Shown here: positions 3,702-17,122 of the stretch, in pieces
How positions within the stretch are numbered: the stretch's first letter is position 1
How the letters are laid out: each line of letters opens with the position of its first letter
DNA from: Medicago truncatula
Lineage: Eukaryota > Streptophyta > Magnoliopsida > Fabales > Fabaceae
Assembly (NCBI RefSeq): GCF_003473485.1
Contig: NC_053045.1
Span: forward strand, 58,694,494-58,758,493
DNA length: 64,000 bases
Reading direction: 5' to 3'
Notes under the pieces: generated by a model
The model's database searches: none
Seen by the model: the letters and a program-made list of their open reading frames with translations, nothing else
Told to the model about the DNA's origin: nothing
Translations under genes and position numbers: made by a program

Positions 3702-3779
3702 ACAATAGTGCCCAACAATCCAATTCATAAACACTCGTTAACATTAATATCACTAGGAATAGTTACTGTCCCCTAAAAA

Positions 3780-5228
<1,449 letters not shown>

Positions 5229-6309: not shown

Positions 6310-9300
6310 TCAAACTGGGGTAGATAAGTTGGTGCAAGGACTAAAACCTGTAGGCCTGTTTTTCCACATCAGCTCTTGTGTATTATTGATACCCTAAAAT
6401 GGATTAAGGAAACATGATTAGACGAAAAGACATCATCAAATAGAAAGAAGGTGAAAAGGATTAACGTTATACCTGTGAATAACGTCCAGGATCACCGGCA
6501 GAAACAAATGATGTCTGTGACTGTTTATAGCCAAGTTCCTAAAAATCCAAACAACTTTCAATTATACACCAAAAAGGAGCCATTTAAAATTAGCAAGTCA
6601 GAGAACAGTGGCTACATGTATAGGCTCTGAGTTATATCAGACATCCCTTCTATTGTTATCAAACAAATGTTGACAAGGGTATATCATATAGCATTACCTG
6701 AACATTTTGATGACCTGTAACTCCATATGCCTGGAACTAGAATTGGAAAAAAAAGTCATTAGCATAATCCTCGTTTTTCTATGCCAAATGAAGTATATCC
6801 TAGAGATGCTTACCGACGAAGGCTGCTGTATTTGTTGATGGTGAACTTGTCCTCGAAAATGACTTTGAGGCTGAACCTGTTGGTTTTGTGCAACTTGCTG
6901 GGTGGGTGGTATTGAAGGCTGTCCCTGAATTTGAGACTGCTGAACAGACTGATTGAGCAGTTGTTTTTGCTGTTCAGATGATGTCAACTCTTCGGGTTTC
7001 TCCCACTGTGGGTTCATTTCAGCAAAAATTAGTTCCACAATGTAAAATAACTCACAAAACCTAATGGCAAGTTGGCAACTCAAGTAAATTCTTACCCGAC
7101 TTTCCCCAGTTACACTATTATAGTAGTATTTGAAGCCCTCGGGAGATAGATGCTCTGTCCAATTACAATTTCCAAGAGTTGTGTTCTGGCTTATTGGTTG
7201 TACAGAAGAAGTAGCAGGTGTTGATGAAGGAACACCTGCAGCAGGTGCAGCTACATGAGTGCCGGTCGCTGCTTGCGATACAGTCCCACCCCATTGAGAC
7301 TACAAAAATAAAAGAATAAAAAGCATTAGCACATGATCGTTATATAAAAGACATCCTCTAATGCATCCTAGAAGGATAATAAATAATATGAACTAACAAC
7401 AATAGAAAGTAATCAATTACTCCAAGACTTCCAAGTCAAAAGTCAATTGAAAGAGTACAGCACATGTAAAGAATACAATTATCAGTTGGTAGCTACAAGG
7501 ACAATATTATGCAGGGGTCGGGATTCGAACCCCAGACTACCCACTTCTACACATTTAAAATGTGTGAACCCCAGCCACTAGGCTACTTGACCAAAAAAAA
7601 TACAATTATCAAGAAACTTTTAGTAGTATAACTGATTCAAACTAAACCAACCAAAGACGATTCATAGATCAGTCCAACCAAAGACGATTCATAGATCAGT
7701 CCAACCAAAGACGATCAAGCAATAAAACCAATGTTCAACTTGTGAAATCTCATACTGGGTGATATGATGAACAAATAAGATAATCCAAATTAAAAGGAAT
7801 TTAAGGAAGAGATTTTGACAATAAATACCTGTGTTTTAGTAGCTTCTGCATGATGCTGCAATGGCGATGCTTGACTGGATGGTTGCATCATCTGTAATTG
7901 TTGTTGAAGCTGGGAGAAGGCCTGCTGAGATGAATGAAAGCTTGCTTGTAACGTCTGTGTTTGTTGTGACAACAATTGAGCTAACTGAGAAGGGGATTGT
8001 GGAAGAGGTTGAAGTGGATGTTGCTGCTGCTGCATAGAAGGAGGAATTTGCTGTTGACTTGGAGTAGTCAATGCGGTATTAGATTGCATGCTGGTATCAA
8101 GAGAGGTCTGAGGAAATGTAGCAGACAAAACACCCTGCTGACTTTGAGGCTGAGAAACTGAAAACTGTGCATTTATGCCCAGTCCCTGTGGACCAGCAGG
8201 GAGAGGTTGTGGCTGACCATGCTGCCTGAAAGATGGACGTGTGGATGTTTGTGGATAGGGAATCGGAGCTTGAGGATATAACTGGTGTGAAGGTGGAAAC
8301 TCCTGAGATGATTGAATAGGTTTCTGTGATGGAGGTATTTGTTGATTGACCGGTGGAATTTGTGGTTGAGGCTGGTTGAAATTCTGAAAACAAAGTAAAT
8401 TTACTAATCTGAGTCAAGCTAACAAACAGGTGAAGCCTCATTACTCATTGATGCTTACTGATAATCTCAAAATACCTGTTGCGGCATTGCTGACGGAGAC
8501 TGAGTTTGAAAACGACCATCTATGGAGACTCCCATGCCAGTCATAGGACCACCCTATATTCATTTAAATAGTGTAAGCAACAGATTTGTGAAGATCAAAA
8601 TAATGGACGAATAAATAATTAGGGGTCAACATTTTGAAAATTATTATTAAACTCTTGAACCCTTCTCTGTCACTTGTCAGTGACAGATTATGCCATGTGA
8701 TTAATTAGAGAACCTTGCAGAAGCAGCTACTAAATGAGTTTATTCCATTCTTTTAACAAAAAAGAGTGATGAGACACTGCAGTTTCAGTCTTGCAGTAGT
8801 GCAGTTTGATATTTGATAAAAACAGGCGATCACTTAGCAACAAAACCCAGAAGGTAGCAAAAAGGTATTTAAAGGACTTTGCTCAGTAGTGTGTTCGCAG
8901 GCTCACACCTCTCGATCAACAGACAAGTTCAAACCTTTTTTATCATGATTAGAATTGACAAAGTGATTGATGGGGTAACTTCTGATGCAGTCAGTTATTT
9001 AGGGGTACTTAGCAGTTTGTGTAATATGCAGTTATTTGTGTTTCTTAGGAGCAGTTAGGCAGTTTGTTTTAGAGTGCAGTTATTAGTATTTGATTAGGAG
9101 CAGTTAGACAGTTTATTTCCTAGTATCACAAATAAGGCCATTCAGCCATAACTGTGGGGAGGATTCAGGAAAATAGACTTAAGAATTAGGAAGGCAGAGA
9201 TGTATTGTTAGCACTCTGAAGGAGCATTTGCTCTGGGATTACAGAGGGGTTAATCTTCTGTAATATTTCTTTTAATTAATTAATTAATTCAATAATACAG

Positions 9301-12300
9301 TTTCTTCTTCTTTTTAATACCGGGTTCCTATCAGTAATATTTCCCATGATTTACTCAGCCAAAGTTAAAGATAAGTCAGCTGAGAGTACTAATCACCATG
9401 CAGCAACAAATCCATAGTGAAGACAAAACCAACTAACCAAGGCAGCAATTAATATTGAAAAGTAAAACACTTGGCATAAAATAGGGAGAGGCATTTCAGT
9501 TGCGGTAGATTTTAAAGAAAAATATTATCAATGGACTTGGGGAAACATCTTTCAATATCATTGAATTTATACTTACTGCATTTATAGGCAATGCCATGTC
9601 CCCGGATCTTGGAATCAATGGAGGCCCCATGCCATGAAAACCAGCATTGAAGGATGTCCCAGTATTTGGTTGAGGGATTGGACGCCAAGCATTAGGGGGA
9701 GGAATATGATCACCCATAGGATCAGAATTATTTGATGGAAGTCTGCAAATAGTAATTGCCAAAATAAAGCATAGCATTGAGTAACATAACAAGAATACAA
9801 AAGATGAACCATTAAAAGATAGTAGTAAGGCTGGTCCTTTGCAAAAAGAAATAGTAGTAAAGCTGGTGGGAGGATACCTAGTGCCTGGTGAATCCAATCT
9901 TGGACCAAATCCTGCAGATCCAAATGCAGGACCCCTGGAAACCAAAGATAAGTTCAAAAACTACTCATTGATGCATGCATAACATCCATTTGAGTCATAT
10001 ATTGGAAGCCTAACACATGGGCTAACTAGTCATAATTAAGCTAATATGGTAGAGTGCTAAAATGGCAAAATAAAACTCTAGCTTAGCCATGATCTCATAT
10101 TCATAACACCAAGCACAAATCAATTTCTGGATCAAGTGAAAATAGTCCACGGCTCCATGCTTTGTGCAATTAATTAATTATATGATGGGCTTTTATGCTT
10201 AGGAATCATCCACTAATGCTAGAAAACAAACCTGGAATCTCCTTGACGAGGTCTCTTAGGATCAGCGAACCGGACAATCAGTGGTTGTTCACAACCCTAT
10301 GCAAAAACATACAAGATTATAAACATAAAGCTCTTATAAGGAGAACTGAAAAAAGAAGAAGAAAAATTCTTACTCTCATTGTATATATTCCATTAAGTGC
10401 ATTAATAGCTGCCAGTGCCATATCTCTATGAGAGTATTTGACAAAACCGCATCCTTCAGACAAAAATAAGGAAAAATATTATCTATTTGGTACTGCTGTC
10501 AAATGCCAAACGCGCATACAGGGACCAAGAATAAAAATTAAATGACCCCAAACATTGTAGGAAAAGGATTATGAAAACAATGTTGAATGCGTCAGTTGTT
10601 TCATACTTTACAGAAACCATTTGTAACCTGAGAATAAGAAACACCAATTCTCACTCTCCCAGTCCCACCCCACAACCAGGTTTCAGACTAATTTCACATA
10701 TATGAAGAAAACATACCACGACTCTGCTTCTGGTCATCACGCATAAGATAAACATCTTCAATCCGTCCATATTTTGAGAAAACCTGATGCAAGAGACACT
10801 ATCAATCACTACCGTGTTCACAACAACAGTAAGCATGACACATTATTCCTGGAAAACTAAACATTTTGGAGGGAGGGAAGTCAACAATTCACTAAATTAC
10901 AAGGACATCGTTTGTCTTGTTCCAAACATTCCCTTTTGCAAGAAAACAAACACATTTGTCCCACTGCAAATAGTTCAGTAACAATCTCTAATGTTTAAAG
11001 TTTGACTGGTAGCAACATACTTCCTCGACTTCCTTTACACTGGCCTGTTTGTTCAGAGAGCCCACGAATAGTTTGTACTCAACTGCACCTATCATATATA
11101 AATTTTACAAAACAGTCAGTCCAGGCAGTCGGATGATTTGGAACAATGATGCATTTAGAAAAGGAAAAAAAAAACGGGGGGGGGGGTGGGATGCCCAGGC
11201 GCAAATTCTTCCCAATTAAGGCTATAACTAACGACTTTCAACAATCATAAGCTTCAGAGCATGTTCAGACGAAGGTACGTACTACTGTTAACTTTTTTTT
11301 CCTTATCACTTAAAAGTTGTTATAACTAAAACGTGAATTTCACATGGCTTTAAATATATTTGGGTAAAATAATAAGTTGACTACTACAGCAGACAAAACG
11401 TTTAGACCATCCAAATAAATGTTCAGAAAGAGACAAGATACCCAATGATCAGCTGATAAAAATAATAGACAGGTTTTCTATGTCAAAAAGATGTCTCAAA
11501 CATTTCATCAGGTTCCATAAGGTCCCCTAATGCACAACATTGGCAGTTGTGCCAGATAAGTCGAGTTGCACTACAATTTATATATGTAAAAATTACAACT
11601 GTGATTTGGGAGACCTGAACAATATTTATTAATCCATGTATGTACACTATACTACACATGTTGCAATAAGAATTTTACAGACCAAACAATGTAAGGAGAA
11701 AAAAATATTTACCAAGGCGTTCTCGTTCGCCATCAGCATACCGCACTTGGATGGGACCAACACCCTAAATGATAATATTATACGTGTCAGAAAATTACTA
11801 ATCATATGTTGCCTTCCCTACTTACTATTCACTTAGGATTCAAAAGCACTGCACTCACTCCGGGAAGAGTATGTCGATTGTGCAATGCTCTAATTGCCTG
11901 ATCAGCTTCCTCTGAGGTAGCATATTTTATAAAACAACAACCTGCACAATAAAAGGTGTTTTATGCCAGTTCCACTAAATAACACCCTCGCCCCCAACAA
12001 CCACCAACAGAAAGCCACTGAGCAGGAAAACAATAAAGCAAGAAGTCTGACTTTAGAAACTTTTTTTTCTTAGAAATACTTAGCTGCTAACGAACACATA
12101 CAATAGGTCAAATTTGTAGAAATTTATGCATTGCATAGTCATTACCCCGTCAAACAAATTAGTTGATAATTTTCATGTACAGTATATTATATATTATATT
12201 ATACTAAAACTACAGAAGATCCCACAGGAATAATATATAGAAAATATATCAAAGTAATCTTATCACAAGTGAGGAAGCAAAATTCCAAACATCAAGAGAA

Positions 12301-15300
12301 GCACATGATAGATCAAATTAAAAAGATACAGTATGATCTTTTTATATGAAGAAGAATTCTGTAGTGTACAACTCATTAGCAAAAACCAAACAGCAATGGC
12401 ATGAAACACTTCAATATCAATAACCGAGATCACACTGATTTATCTGCACTAATGGTGAAGCTTACAAGCCACCACACAACTACAGTGCAATATAAATAAT
12501 TGACTAGTTCATAATCTTCGTCAAGAAAATAAACACCTTCTATTTCACATCTCATATCAGAGTTGACATTGTATCCTCTGTAGATTGATTACAGCAAAAC
12601 AGACTAACTCATAAGTAACAATAGGTTACTCATGCAAAAACTTCCCTTGGATAAAGGCATAACTAAAACCACTAAATTGCAACGTCTACAACACAGCACC
12701 AGAAATATTCACCAGTGTGCTAAAATATTCACAATCAATAGAATCTGAAGAGGAATTCTAGCATCGAAAAAGTAAAGGCTTAACTAATACCACCAAATTG
12801 CACAAGTTCACACAACTGCACCAGAAATATTCACCAGTGTGCTAAGATATTCACAATCAACAGAATCTGGGGATGAATTATGCTAGATGGCCTTTCTGAC
12901 TCAATAGCATATATAAAAGATTTCAACAAATTATTGTGATAAAGTACGACTGTGAGTCTAACTAATAAACAAAGGCAAAAGAATAGCACTTGACGAAATT
13001 TCAGTTCCATGGAGAATCCAACTTTCATGGTGGTCTTTTCGACAACTAAATGGCACTGGTACCTAAACGGACCAGTGGGTAGCAGATCCAGTCAAATATG
13101 CAAACACCTCTGGTATCTCAGATGGCTACGCATAGACATATAAACAACGTGATTGTCGTCATCCCAAACAGGTGGAATTAGAATTTCTAAACCGCCTGAC
13201 TTCTAAAATAATTTCTACATGTACTGCATCATTATATCTAATCACAGACCTATGATCAGGAAGAGGCAAAAACATTGTTCCAAGCAAGCACCACTCAGAA
13301 AGCATGTCGTACAGGAAATTATATACACCACGTACGCATAAAGTTTAAACTAAAAAACTATGTGCCAACATTTAACATACAGAACACAAACACAGAACCA
13401 TCAACCACATGAACAGGTCATCCATTCATAAGGTGCAATTAGAATTTCTAGACCACCTGACTTCTAAAATAATTTCTATATGTGCTGCATCATTATATCT
13501 AATCACAGACCTACGATCACGAAGAAGCAAAATCATTGTTCCAAGTGAGCACCATTCTGAAACCACACCCATACAGGAAATCATATTCATCACATACGCA
13601 TAATGTTCAAACTAAAATTAAACTAGGTGCCTACATTTAACATAAAGAATCACAAACACAACCATCAACCACGTCGCCAACAGGTCATCCATTCATAAGG
13701 TGCAAATAGAATTTCTAAATCACCAACTTCTAAAGTAATTTCTATATGTGCTGCATCATTATATCTGATAACCCACCTATGATCACGAAGAAGCAAAATC
13801 ATTGTTCCAAGTGAGCACCATTCTGAAACTATGCCCATACAGGAAATCATATCCATCACATACGCATAATGTTGAAACTAAAACTAAACTAGGTGCCTAC
13901 ATTTAACATAAAGAATCACTAACACACAACCATCAACCACGTCACCAACAGGTCATCGATTCATACGTTGCAAATAGAATTTCTACACCACCCTGACTTC
14001 TAAAGTAATTTCTATATGGACTGCATCGTTGTATCTTATCACAGACCTATGATCACGAAGTAGCAAAATAATTGTTCCACGCAAACACACCATTCTGAAA
14101 CCACGTCATAGAGGAAATTATATCCATCAAACACACATAAAACTTTAAAACTAAAACTAGTTGCCTACATTTAACTTAAAGAATCACAAAAACACAACCA
14201 TCAACCACATCGCCAACGGGTCATCCATTCATACACACATGCATAACGTTAAAACTAAAACTAGTTGCCTACATTTGACATAAAGAATCACAAACACGCA
14301 ACCATCAACCACATCGCCAACGGGTCAACCATTCATAATGTATCTAATGAAGTATGAATTCCAACAAACACATCAATCATTGATATCAATTAGCATCCGT
14401 ACTTTGTCAGCCGAACTTTAAGCCCCCCACCATTTTACTCAATCGAAACTGATACATGACATCCCAAGCCATTCAATAAATGCTAACATTCACCAAAGTA
14501 TGAGAAAAATTAAACCTTCTGAGATACATTGTGATTAACACCAGTCAAATGTAAAAACCCAAGATTTTGTCTGTTTCCTTTGTACAATTACTGACTTCTA
14601 AATTTTTGGCAAAACAATCTACACCTATAGCAACAAACACCCCCACTGCAACCAATTTTTGAGCAAAGCCCCCACTTCTGCAGCTACAATTGCAAGAGCA
14701 GGATCTTTTGGTCCTCGAAGATCCCATCTTCTATACAAAGAGCAGCTTACAGATTTACATCTCTCAGCCCCTTCAGGTATGACAGGTCGAGGAAAAAAGT
14801 GGAACCAAAACCAACAAGTCTGAACTTGTTTCAAAATCAAACTGAGATGAAGACGAGCGTATAGTCTTCCCTATCAGCCTCTCAGAGGACCTGAAAGAAA
14901 ATGTACATGAATCGCAACAGTCTTAGAATATAAGAATCACAAATACCTTGATGCTGTCCTGTTTTTCTATCTTTGATCAGGGCGACCTCAACCACATTCC
15001 CGTGTTCCTCAAACAAAGGACGGATCTAGCATCAAATGATTGTAACAAGAAAACAATTACTTATCAAATATTAGACTTATGTTAATATATTTTGATCAGA
15101 TGTAATGGAAAACATGAGATCATTAAGCAATCAAGAAAATAACATGTAAAAAGGTTAGACGACTTACATCTTCCTCAGTTGCTGTTCGGGGAACAGACCC
15201 AACAAAAAGTTTGGCAAAATTTCCACCATCAGAATGATCTGAAATGAACAAATGTGTCATTCAAGATTTCAAGTTATACCAAGTCATATTCTACTAGCTT

Positions 15301-16435
15301 CCACATCACAGCTCTCGGATTAACGCAAACGGATAAATACCAAGTATTTTGGTAAGTAAATTATAATGAAAACTCAACCGTTTGTTAGAGAATACTAATT
15401 ATCGTGTGTAGTTTAGTAGTTTAGCACTTCAGCTTCTGTTACCCAGTTTACTGAAAGCTGTAAATTATTATGTTACCAAACAGTTGCAACTAACCCAGTA
15501 TCATAGCTAGACTCAGTAAAACTAAATCTATATATATTCAATGTGACAGATAAACCAAACTTGTATGATTCATATTCCATAACGATTTAATCATATCAAT
15601 CGTAATCATTAGACCACTAAAAGTATTCGACTTTAATCATATCTACCTTAAAAACAACTTCGAATATCATACAAATGATGATTTGTGATTGGCTGACAGT
15701 ATCCATGCAAGGATCAACAACATCATATAATTCTAGCTAATATCAACGATGCAAAGATTCTAGGGTCAACAACATCCTACAACCCATGGAAACATAATCC
15801 CTAAAATAAACCTAGGTAGAATAAGATCATGCAAACATAACCCACCAACATTTCTGATTGAAGGCGTATCCGGTGTCAGACGCATGTGACTACATAATAC
15901 ATTCAATTGTCATTTACACGAATTATTACCGGTATCAGTGTTGTGTCCAGTATTTGTGCTTCATATTCAGCATGCAATTTCAAACAAACATAGATAACTA
16001 CACGATAGCATTGATAGCAATTGAACTACGTATAACAGCAAAACCTAATAGCTAATAATCGAAAACAGAATCAACAAACTCACCCGGTGAAGCACCACGA
16101 CCAGAGAACGGAAACCCACGTTTCTGACCAGACAACGGCGGTGGTGGCAGGTTGAATCCAAATTCATCACCGCCCACCGGTCTGAAGCCATCTCCGGCAG
16201 GTGGAGGACGGAGACCACCTCCAACCCTACCCGGAGACCACCGTGGGGGACTATCAAAGTTGCTACGGTGGAGAGGGGCGGGGCGGAAACCACCAGGACT
16301 TCGACGGTGGTTGTAGTTCATCGGAGAATCGGAGAAACGAGACGCCCTGGAAGGACGATTGTTGTTGTAAGGGTAATCATCGTCGTTGTTGTCGCCGTAG
16401 CGGTTTCCTCTGTGCCTATCCAGTTTGGCGAACAG
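6310..16435 (-). CDS. FCA: FCA, flowering-time RNA-binding protein with two RRMs and a WW domain
   Basis: FCA is a nuclear RNA-binding protein of the autonomous flowering pathway. It works with the 3'-end processing factor FY to promote proximal polyadenylation at antisense FLC transcripts and at its own pre-mRNA (known for Arabidopsis). I assembled 18 exons on the minus strand: 16435-16084, 15238-15168, 15025-14947, 11941-11859, 11764-11713, 11088-11021, 10783-10717, 10453-10374, 10296-10232, 9934-9878, 9742-9577, 8553-8476, 8383-7829, 7299-7096, 7005-6814, 6736-6698, 6538-6473 and 6393-6310. They sum to 785 codons plus stop with every phase consistent. RRM1 spans about 127-211 (KLFVGSVPRTATEED, CCFIKYA) and RRM2 about 218-300 (KLFVGSLNKQAS, CGFVKYS). 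A Gln/Pro-rich region holds the FCA signature AQLLSQQTQTLQASFHSSQQ. The WW domain runs from W638 through YYYN to W660 and P663 and is expected to bind PPLP motifs of FY. The C-terminus keeps the family motif QELMWKN. The gene looks fully functional. Confidence 0.95.
6394..6472 (-). other. Last FCA intron, which sets the C-terminal frame
   Basis: The acceptor is TTTTAG at 6394-6399, joining the frame that ends QELMWKN and about 17 further residues. An AG nearer the QELM codons would give an immediate stop, so the upstream acceptor is preferred. The donor is GTATAA at the 6472 end. Confidence 0.7.
7500..7595 (-). mobile_element. tRNA-derived SINE fragment in FCA intron 13
   Basis: Read on the minus strand this has a tRNA-like head: an A-box-like TAGCCTAGTGGCTGGGG and a B box GGGGTTCGAATCCC, followed by GACCCCTGCATAATATTG. 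The spacing of the two boxes fits an RNA polymerase III internal promoter. It does not fold as a complete functional tRNA that I can confirm, and it sits inside an intron. A decayed tRNA-derived SINE of the type common in legumes is the best reading. Confidence 0.5.
7659..7715. repeat. Short direct repeat in FCA intron 13
   Basis: The phrase CCAACCAAAGACGATTCATA and its flank ATAGATCAGT occur twice in succession, with a third partial copy. The unit is 26 bp. It is a small tandem duplication with no visible function. Confidence 0.7.
11176..11186. repeat. Homopolymer G run in FCA intron 5
   Basis: Eleven consecutive G bases follow a run of A. On the transcribed strand this is a C run in intron 5. 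It may simply be a mutable tract or a sequencing-sensitive spot. Confidence 0.8.
12660..12879. repeat. Two-copy tandem repeat of about 122 bp in FCA intron 3
   Basis: The blocks at 12660-12755 and 12782-12879 share CCAGAAATATTCACCAGTGT, then TATTCACAATCAA, AGAATCTG and a common end. They differ by scattered substitutions, so the duplication is not recent. Confidence 0.85.
13162..14336. repeat. Tandem array of about 265 bp units in FCA intron 3
   Basis: Four near-complete units start at about 13162, 13425, 13690 and 13960. A partial fifth runs from about 14226 to 14336. Each unit carries the ordered words TAGAATTTCTA, TGACTTCTAAA, CTGCATCATTATATCT, GATCACGAAG, ATTGTTCCA, TACGCATAA and CAACCATCAACCAC. 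Units differ by substitutions and small indels. The array accounts for over a third of the intron. Confidence 0.9.
16433..16435 (-). promoter_or_regulatory. FCA: Probable non-AUG (CUG) start codon of FCA
   Basis: The FCA frame stays open upstream of its first ATG (16319-16321) for 38 codons that read like coding sequence (LDRHRGNRYGDNN and onward). It is closed by an in-frame TAG at 16445-16447, and there is no ATG in between. A CTG at 16433-16435 with A at -3 is the first near-cognate codon; a second in-frame CTG follows at 16421-16423. Arabidopsis FCA is reported to start at an upstream CUG, so the same mechanism is inferred here. Starting at the ATG would give 747 residues instead of 785. 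Confidence 0.7.
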
Positions 16436-16460
16436 AGTGAAACCCTAAAACCCTAGAGAA

Positions 16461-16496
<36 letters not shown>

Positions 16497-16560
16497 GATG
16501 AAGAAGAATAGAGAAGAAAGAGTGTGAAGTGTTTATTTCTTTGCACCGGTGAACAAAGGA
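16436..16560 (-). promoter_or_regulatory. FCA 5' leader with CTT trinucleotide repeat
   Basis: The sequence upstream of the CUG holds a pure AAG repeat at 16463-16494, read as CTT on the FCA sense strand. This is followed toward the start by two AGGGTTTTAGGGTTT-type (telo-box-like) words. CT-rich leaders and telo-box motifs are common near plant transcription starts. The exact transcript start is not visible. Confidence 0.55.
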
Positions 16561-16680: not shown

Positions 16681-17122
16681 TTTGTTTTAAAGAAGAAAAA
16701 TGCTAAAACACATATTTTTAACACACTTTTTTGCCCTCTATTGAAATTCACATTTGCCTATCAAATTTATATGGATCTTACATAATAAAGGAATATGCAT
16801 CGTCGTAAAGAGCCTTATTCAATAAGCAGGCGAGCTCCGATTAACTGCCCGGTAAGACGCGCTCCTTAATATAATAGTCATAGAGTCAATACCCAGCGAA
16901 AGGCGGATCATAGAATCCGCTGTTTGATAGGAAGAATAGGCTGTATATGTTCTAAACTTCAAGGATGACGGACTTCTATGCGGAAACCGGAGAAGTAGGT
17001 ATCCGAAGTTACCGAACAAACTAGCCACTCGTTTTTATGGATTCATCTGAATTTTAACCAATCTATATTCAAAAATATGTGTGTTAAAATGTATGTTGTT
17101 AATATTCCTCTTTAAAACAAAA
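16681..17122. mobile_element. Foldback or MITE-like element with a non-nuclear-looking insert
   Basis: Imperfect inverted repeats of about 50 bp flank this segment. The left arm begins TTTGTTTTAAAGAAGAAAAA, and the right arm, read in reverse complement, begins TTTTGTTTTAAAGAGGAAT. Both reach TTTTTAACACAC or TTTTAACACAC. The interior at about 16800-17035 differs in base composition from all its surroundings. Confidence 0.55.
16800..17035 (-). other. Probable organelle-derived (mitochondrial-like) segment
   Basis: About 235 bp are close to half G+C in a region that is otherwise about 30 percent. The style (GCCCGGTAAGACGCG, CAGCGAAAGGCGGATC, CGGAAACCGGAGAAGTAGG) is reminiscent of plant mitochondrial DNA. 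A 69-codon minus-strand frame (16819-17028) is open through it, with no domain I recognise. The assignment rests only on composition and appearance. Confidence 0.4.

Follow-up and report, generated by a model that had tools for sequence, protein, structure and literature searches.

A probable CUG start for the FCA homologue of Medicago truncatula, with a predicted RNA hairpin around the codon

The gene that occupies the minus strand of the 64,000-nucleotide stretch of Medicago truncatula DNA analysed here (the window) raises the question of where its translation begins. Its reading frame remains open above the first in-frame ATG, and this open part contains CTG codons and no in-frame ATG. Before the start can be discussed the gene has to be identified, and for this we built an exon model on splice signals and the open frame, with GT-AG introns. 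The model has the following parts:

6310..16423, minus strand: FCA homologue of 781 residues, with 18 coding exons between CTG 16423 and the end of the stop codon
16084..16423, minus strand: coding part of exon 1 in the exon model
11942..14946, minus strand: intron 3, 3005 nt, the longest of 17 introns (the numbering assumes that the exon with the CTG is exon 1)

The first 732 of the 781 residues of the model product were compared with Pfam. RRM_1 was recovered in two stretches (E 1.8e-36, best at 124-186) and one WW domain was found at 632-659 (E 4e-10). A pair of RRM domains with a single WW domain after it is the mark of FCA, a plant RNA-binding regulator of flowering, and judged by its exon model and its RRM and WW content the gene appears to be the FCA of Medicago truncatula. 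Among solved structures compared by sequence, the closest to the RRM region is CUGBP Elav-like family member 1 (3nmr, 2.8e-41; among the best 60 of 223 matches). Exon 1 gave no match to solved structures in a sequence search at E values up to 1, and no second copy of it was found in the plant's own genome at the sensitivity of the search used, where the 10 other matches listed all fall inside intron 1. That intron carries a dispersed repeat (15843-15969) with at least 10 further genome matches of 72-87% identity. Intron 3 is known to be large in Arabidopsis FCA. The longest intron described here shares its number with the intron in which the proximal poly(A) sites of Arabidopsis FCA are located, according to the accessible parts of PMC11962161 and PMC7457121. 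Tandem repeats at 13170-14337 sit in this intron, by number the counterpart of the one in which Arabidopsis has its proximal poly(A) site: an array at 13170-14233 (85% matches) is built of 4.0 copies of a 266-bp unit, and 2.1 copies of a 104-bp unit lie at 14122-14337. A literature search for FCA together with intron 3 and promoter-proximal polyadenylation returned no report. Downstream of FCA a peroxidase gene is found on the plus strand at about 3777-5228; its ORF at 4749-5228 matches PF00141 (E 2.6e-25), and plausible earlier exons were recognized by eye at 3777-4079 and 4230-4526.

The region in which translation must start is small, and the elements that matter for the argument are these:

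16445..16447, minus strand: in-frame TAG, the upstream bound of the FCA frame as read in the sequence
16433..16435, minus strand: CTG proposed originally as the start, with A at -3 and T at +4; base-paired within the stem of the predicted hairpin
16421..16423, minus strand: CTG judged the likelier start, with A at -3 and G at +4; placed in the predicted apical loop, where it is unpaired
16322..16423, minus strand: putative N-terminal extension of 34 codons, LDRHRGNRYGDNNDDDYPYNNNRPSRASRFSDSP; open frame with the best coding score of the six frames
16319..16321, minus strand: first in-frame ATG, Met35 counted from CTG 16423
16318..16380, minus strand: ORF of the out-of-frame AUG, 20 codons and a stop; its TGA (16320-16318) overlaps the in-frame ATG as ATGA
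16402..16444, minus strand: predicted 15-bp RNA hairpin enclosing both CTGs, with the loop AAACUGGAUA at 16426-16417

The original prediction had described a frame that is open above the first ATG and bounded by the TAG, and re-reading of the minus strand agrees with it. We likewise count 38 open codons before the ATG when CTG 16435 is included, and this CTG (16435-16433) does carry an A at -3, as had been said. The claim that the stretch is free of ATG codons is correct for the FCA frame, in which two CTGs, 16435 and 16423, are found between the TAG and the ATG, but there is an out-of-frame ATG at 16380. An open frame above the first in-frame AUG that contains a CUG and lacks an in-frame AUG is what a CUG-initiated FCA should have, and this is what we find. 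Since the sole Met within the first 140 residues from CTG 16423 is number 35, the start is in effect either a CUG or the poorly placed AUG 16321. The length of the open frame was considered as evidence for coding and rejected. The 41-codon stretch below the TAG was without an in-frame stop in 1952 of 5000 dinucleotide shuffles, and the last 34 codons in 2057 of 5000. With about 40% of shuffles open, the case for the CUG has to rest on evidence other than openness.

Codon scores obtained from this single sequence give moderate support to a coding function of the extension. The codon usage model was trained on 41 long ORFs in 264 kb (8940 codons, unannotated), with exon 1 excluded and the other FCA exons included. 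The 34 codons reach 0.26 bits per codon in frame. The two remaining sense frames give 0.06 and 0.01, and the frames of the opposite strand lie between 0.07 and 0.11. In frame, the remainder of exon 1 reaches 0.35 and the 34 codons of the leader above the TAG 0.02. The value of the extension exceeds that of 88% of the 217 left-out 34-codon pieces of the training ORFs, and it is reached by 1.8% of 40,903 sampled stop-free pieces outside these ORFs. Among the 3910 stop-free pieces with a G+C content of at least 0.47, 11% score as high, and some of these may be real exons. An earlier model had been trained on 8 ORFs; with it the score of the extension was reached by 0 of 5000 shuffles and by 3.2% of 651 stop-free pieces. 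Both training sets, with 8 and 41 ORFs, are small and unannotated.

We therefore consider a protein start at a CUG, at either of the two codons, the best reading of this locus and assign it a probability of about 0.75; in this the original prediction holds, whereas the codon it had selected, 16435, is probably not used. Within this reading we lean towards CTG 16423 as the start codon, the sequence context of which is GCCAAACTGGAT. An A at -3 combined with a G at +4 makes the better start context by the usual rule, and CTG 16423 appears likelier than CTG 16435 because of this stronger context and because it is unpaired in the predicted structure. If translation began at CTG 16435, the first CTG that a scanning ribosome reaches and one that also has an A at -3, 38 codons would precede the Met and the protein would have 785 residues. 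We regard this as unlikely, given the T at +4, the complete pairing of the codon in the predicted stem, and a coding score of 0.13 for the seven codons from the TAG to CTG 16423 against 0.26 for the extension, although seven codons are too few to weigh much.

A start at AUG 16321 would yield 747 residues and turn everything above it into leader, with AUG 16380 opening an ordinary repressive uORF and re-initiation taking place at the ATGA. Such a start has the appeal of needing canonical AUGs only, open frames of the length seen here are common in shuffles, and the ATGA overlap is a known arrangement for re-initiation, which counts in its favour. The coding signal in the 34 codons speaks against it, and so does AUG 16380, which comes first and has an A at -3 (ACGACG ATG A). 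Because this out-of-frame AUG precedes AUG 16321, the latter can be reached only by leaky scanning or re-initiation, and under plain scanning it would be poorly served, given AUG 16380 and the overlap of its ORF. The intervening out-of-frame ATG thus adds support to a CUG start. An in-frame AUG could also be supplied by an upstream exon joined through an acceptor at 16444, in which case the TAG would be spliced out. To score such sites we used an acceptor matrix derived from the 16 modelled acceptors of the FCA gene itself, which were scored leave-one-out. The acceptor-like site at 16444 scores 7.5, above 14 of the 16, it has a pyrimidine tract, and beside it the stronger site at 16452 scores 13.1, above all 16 (highest 10.3); eight donor-like sites scoring above 3 are present between 16470 and 17300. 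A leader intron is possible in view of these strong sites. Pyrimidine-rich leaders are common in plant genes, and the acceptor scores therefore do not show an intron. Moreover, use of the stronger site, 16452, would leave the in-frame TAG in the transcript, and no upstream AUG could then be joined to the frame. With one more coding exon the large intron would become number 4; its present number, 3 as in Arabidopsis, argues against such an exon. The upstream sequence is AT-rich DNA with a 253-bp copy of probably mitochondrial origin, which also speaks against such an exon. An upstream in-frame AUG is in our view very unlikely. AUG 16321 is quite improbable, also because the Arabidopsis CUG is reported to be used in the accessible parts of PMC11962161 and PMC12973399.

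The leader and the DNA above it have features of their own. A CTT microsatellite (16457-16518) is followed by two AGGGTTT motifs, found by eye, just above the CUG (16444-16518 for the whole), and we take these motifs to be telobox-like. Within the FCA promoter region, some 360 bp above CTG 16423, lies the 253-bp stretch (16781-17033), which is 97% identical to contig C41 (271,618 bases), presumably the mitochondrial genome, and to contig C13; a further copy on C7 is 92% identical. A tRNA scan of this organelle-like locus returned 0 genes. Imperfect inverted repeats (16690-16719 and 17071-17100, 77% complementary) border the stretch on its two sides, and both flanks match other chromosomal places, as if the organelle-like DNA were sitting inside a small inverted-repeat element that spans 16690-17100.

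How might a ribosome be led to a CUG? Both CTGs lie within the predicted hairpin, in which GGUUUC-a-CUCUGU-uc-GCC is paired with GGC-ACAGAG-GAAACC (15 pairs, from 16444 to 16402). The 47-nt piece that contains it, selected after the fold had been seen, has a predicted energy of -20.2 kcal/mol compared to a shuffle mean of -9.1 (z -4.5), and 0 of 2000 shuffles were as stable. We ranked it among 47-nt windows sampled in steps of 4 bases from the two strands of the window and of a further 200 kb, the hairpin's own window counted: 153 of 131,956 were as stable, and 34 of 10,640 when the G+C content was held within 0.05. This ranking replaces that of a 46-nt piece without the outermost pair, which folded at -16.0 kcal/mol and was matched in stability by 144 of 25,582 windows. 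Across five assumed leader ends the mean pair probability ranges from 0.91 to 0.98, with 0.80 for the lowest single pair, and for the same ends each base of CTG 16423 is unpaired with a probability of at least 0.89 and CTG 16435 is paired. When the 3' arm was recoded synonymously, 16 of 5000 versions were as stable, and when the 5' arm was shuffled, 2 of 5000 were. Several points weigh against the hairpin: the choice of the piece after folding, a weaker z of -2.9 in a 71-nt piece (16 of 2000 shuffles equally stable) and of -0.76 in a 181-nt region, and a structure elsewhere in exon 1, at 16236-16191, that is predicted to be more stable (-27.6 kcal/mol in 46-nt windows). A second, less certain structure at 16397-16330 is part of the minimum-energy fold of the 181-nt region and largely absent from the centroid. 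Stalling of ribosomes by a downstream hairpin is not favoured as an explanation, since the 181-nt region as a whole has a z of -0.76, the clearest hairpin encloses the codon, and the structure at 16397-16330 begins about 26 nt below CTG 16423. The folding predictions rather allow the idea that RNA shape directs initiation at FCA, in that the leader GGTTTCACTCTGTTCGCC would pair with the first codons GGCACAGAGGAAACC and display CUG 16423 in a 10-nt loop. We hold this idea to be doubtful. If true, it would explain why sequences above the CUG are reported to be needed in Arabidopsis, and it would couple the dose of FCA to whatever melts or binds the hairpin, be it temperature, a helicase or FCA itself. 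The predicted hairpin is new here and offers a concrete and cheap hypothesis for the choice of the CUG.

With CUG 16423 as the start, the following course of events can be proposed. Ribosomes would initiate at this codon, and those that miss it would be caught by AUG 16380 and for the most part be released after its 20 codons. Alternatively, they may re-initiate weakly at AUG 16321 after the short ORF. In that case recognition of the CUG would determine how much FCA is made, in addition to the feedback through intron-3 polyadenylation that has been reported in Arabidopsis. It seems plausible that inefficient initiation has been selected as a dosage control, an idea put forward with the original prediction. 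FCA is a regulator reported to control its own amount. For annotation, a CUG start, if true, would mean that gene models beginning at the AUG miss 34 residues.

In Arabidopsis, initiation of FCA is reported to occur exclusively at a CUG (attributed to Simpson et al. 2010, Plant Cell 22:3764). The accessible parts of PMC11962161 and PMC12973399 likewise have Arabidopsis FCA start at a CTG, in agreement with the non-AUG start on which the original prediction had drawn, and CUG is given as the commonest near-cognate start codon found in plants in the part of a review that was available (PMC11062462). The gene analysed here is probably a further CUG-start FCA, of a start type already reported in Arabidopsis. 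We found no report of a CTG start for a legume FCA in the open-licence literature, and in the available portions of PMC4197245, PMC5853252, PMC9845219 and PMC11062462 FCA is confined to reference lists or absent. If the CUG start is common to a legume and Arabidopsis, such a non-AUG codon has been kept over a large part of the history of the eudicots. The CUG start is the feature that both genes would share, read in Medicago from the sequence alone, whereas the hairpin and the ORF that overlaps the in-frame ATG as ATGA go unmentioned in the accessible parts of PMC11962161 and PMC12973399. Selection of start codons by downstream hairpins, as described in the available part of PMC10499604, is a related case in which RNA structure likewise lies near the start codon of plant mRNAs. 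In that system, as far as this part describes it, the structure is located downstream of an AUG, while in the FCA of Medicago truncatula the clearest predicted hairpin holds the CUG inside its loop.
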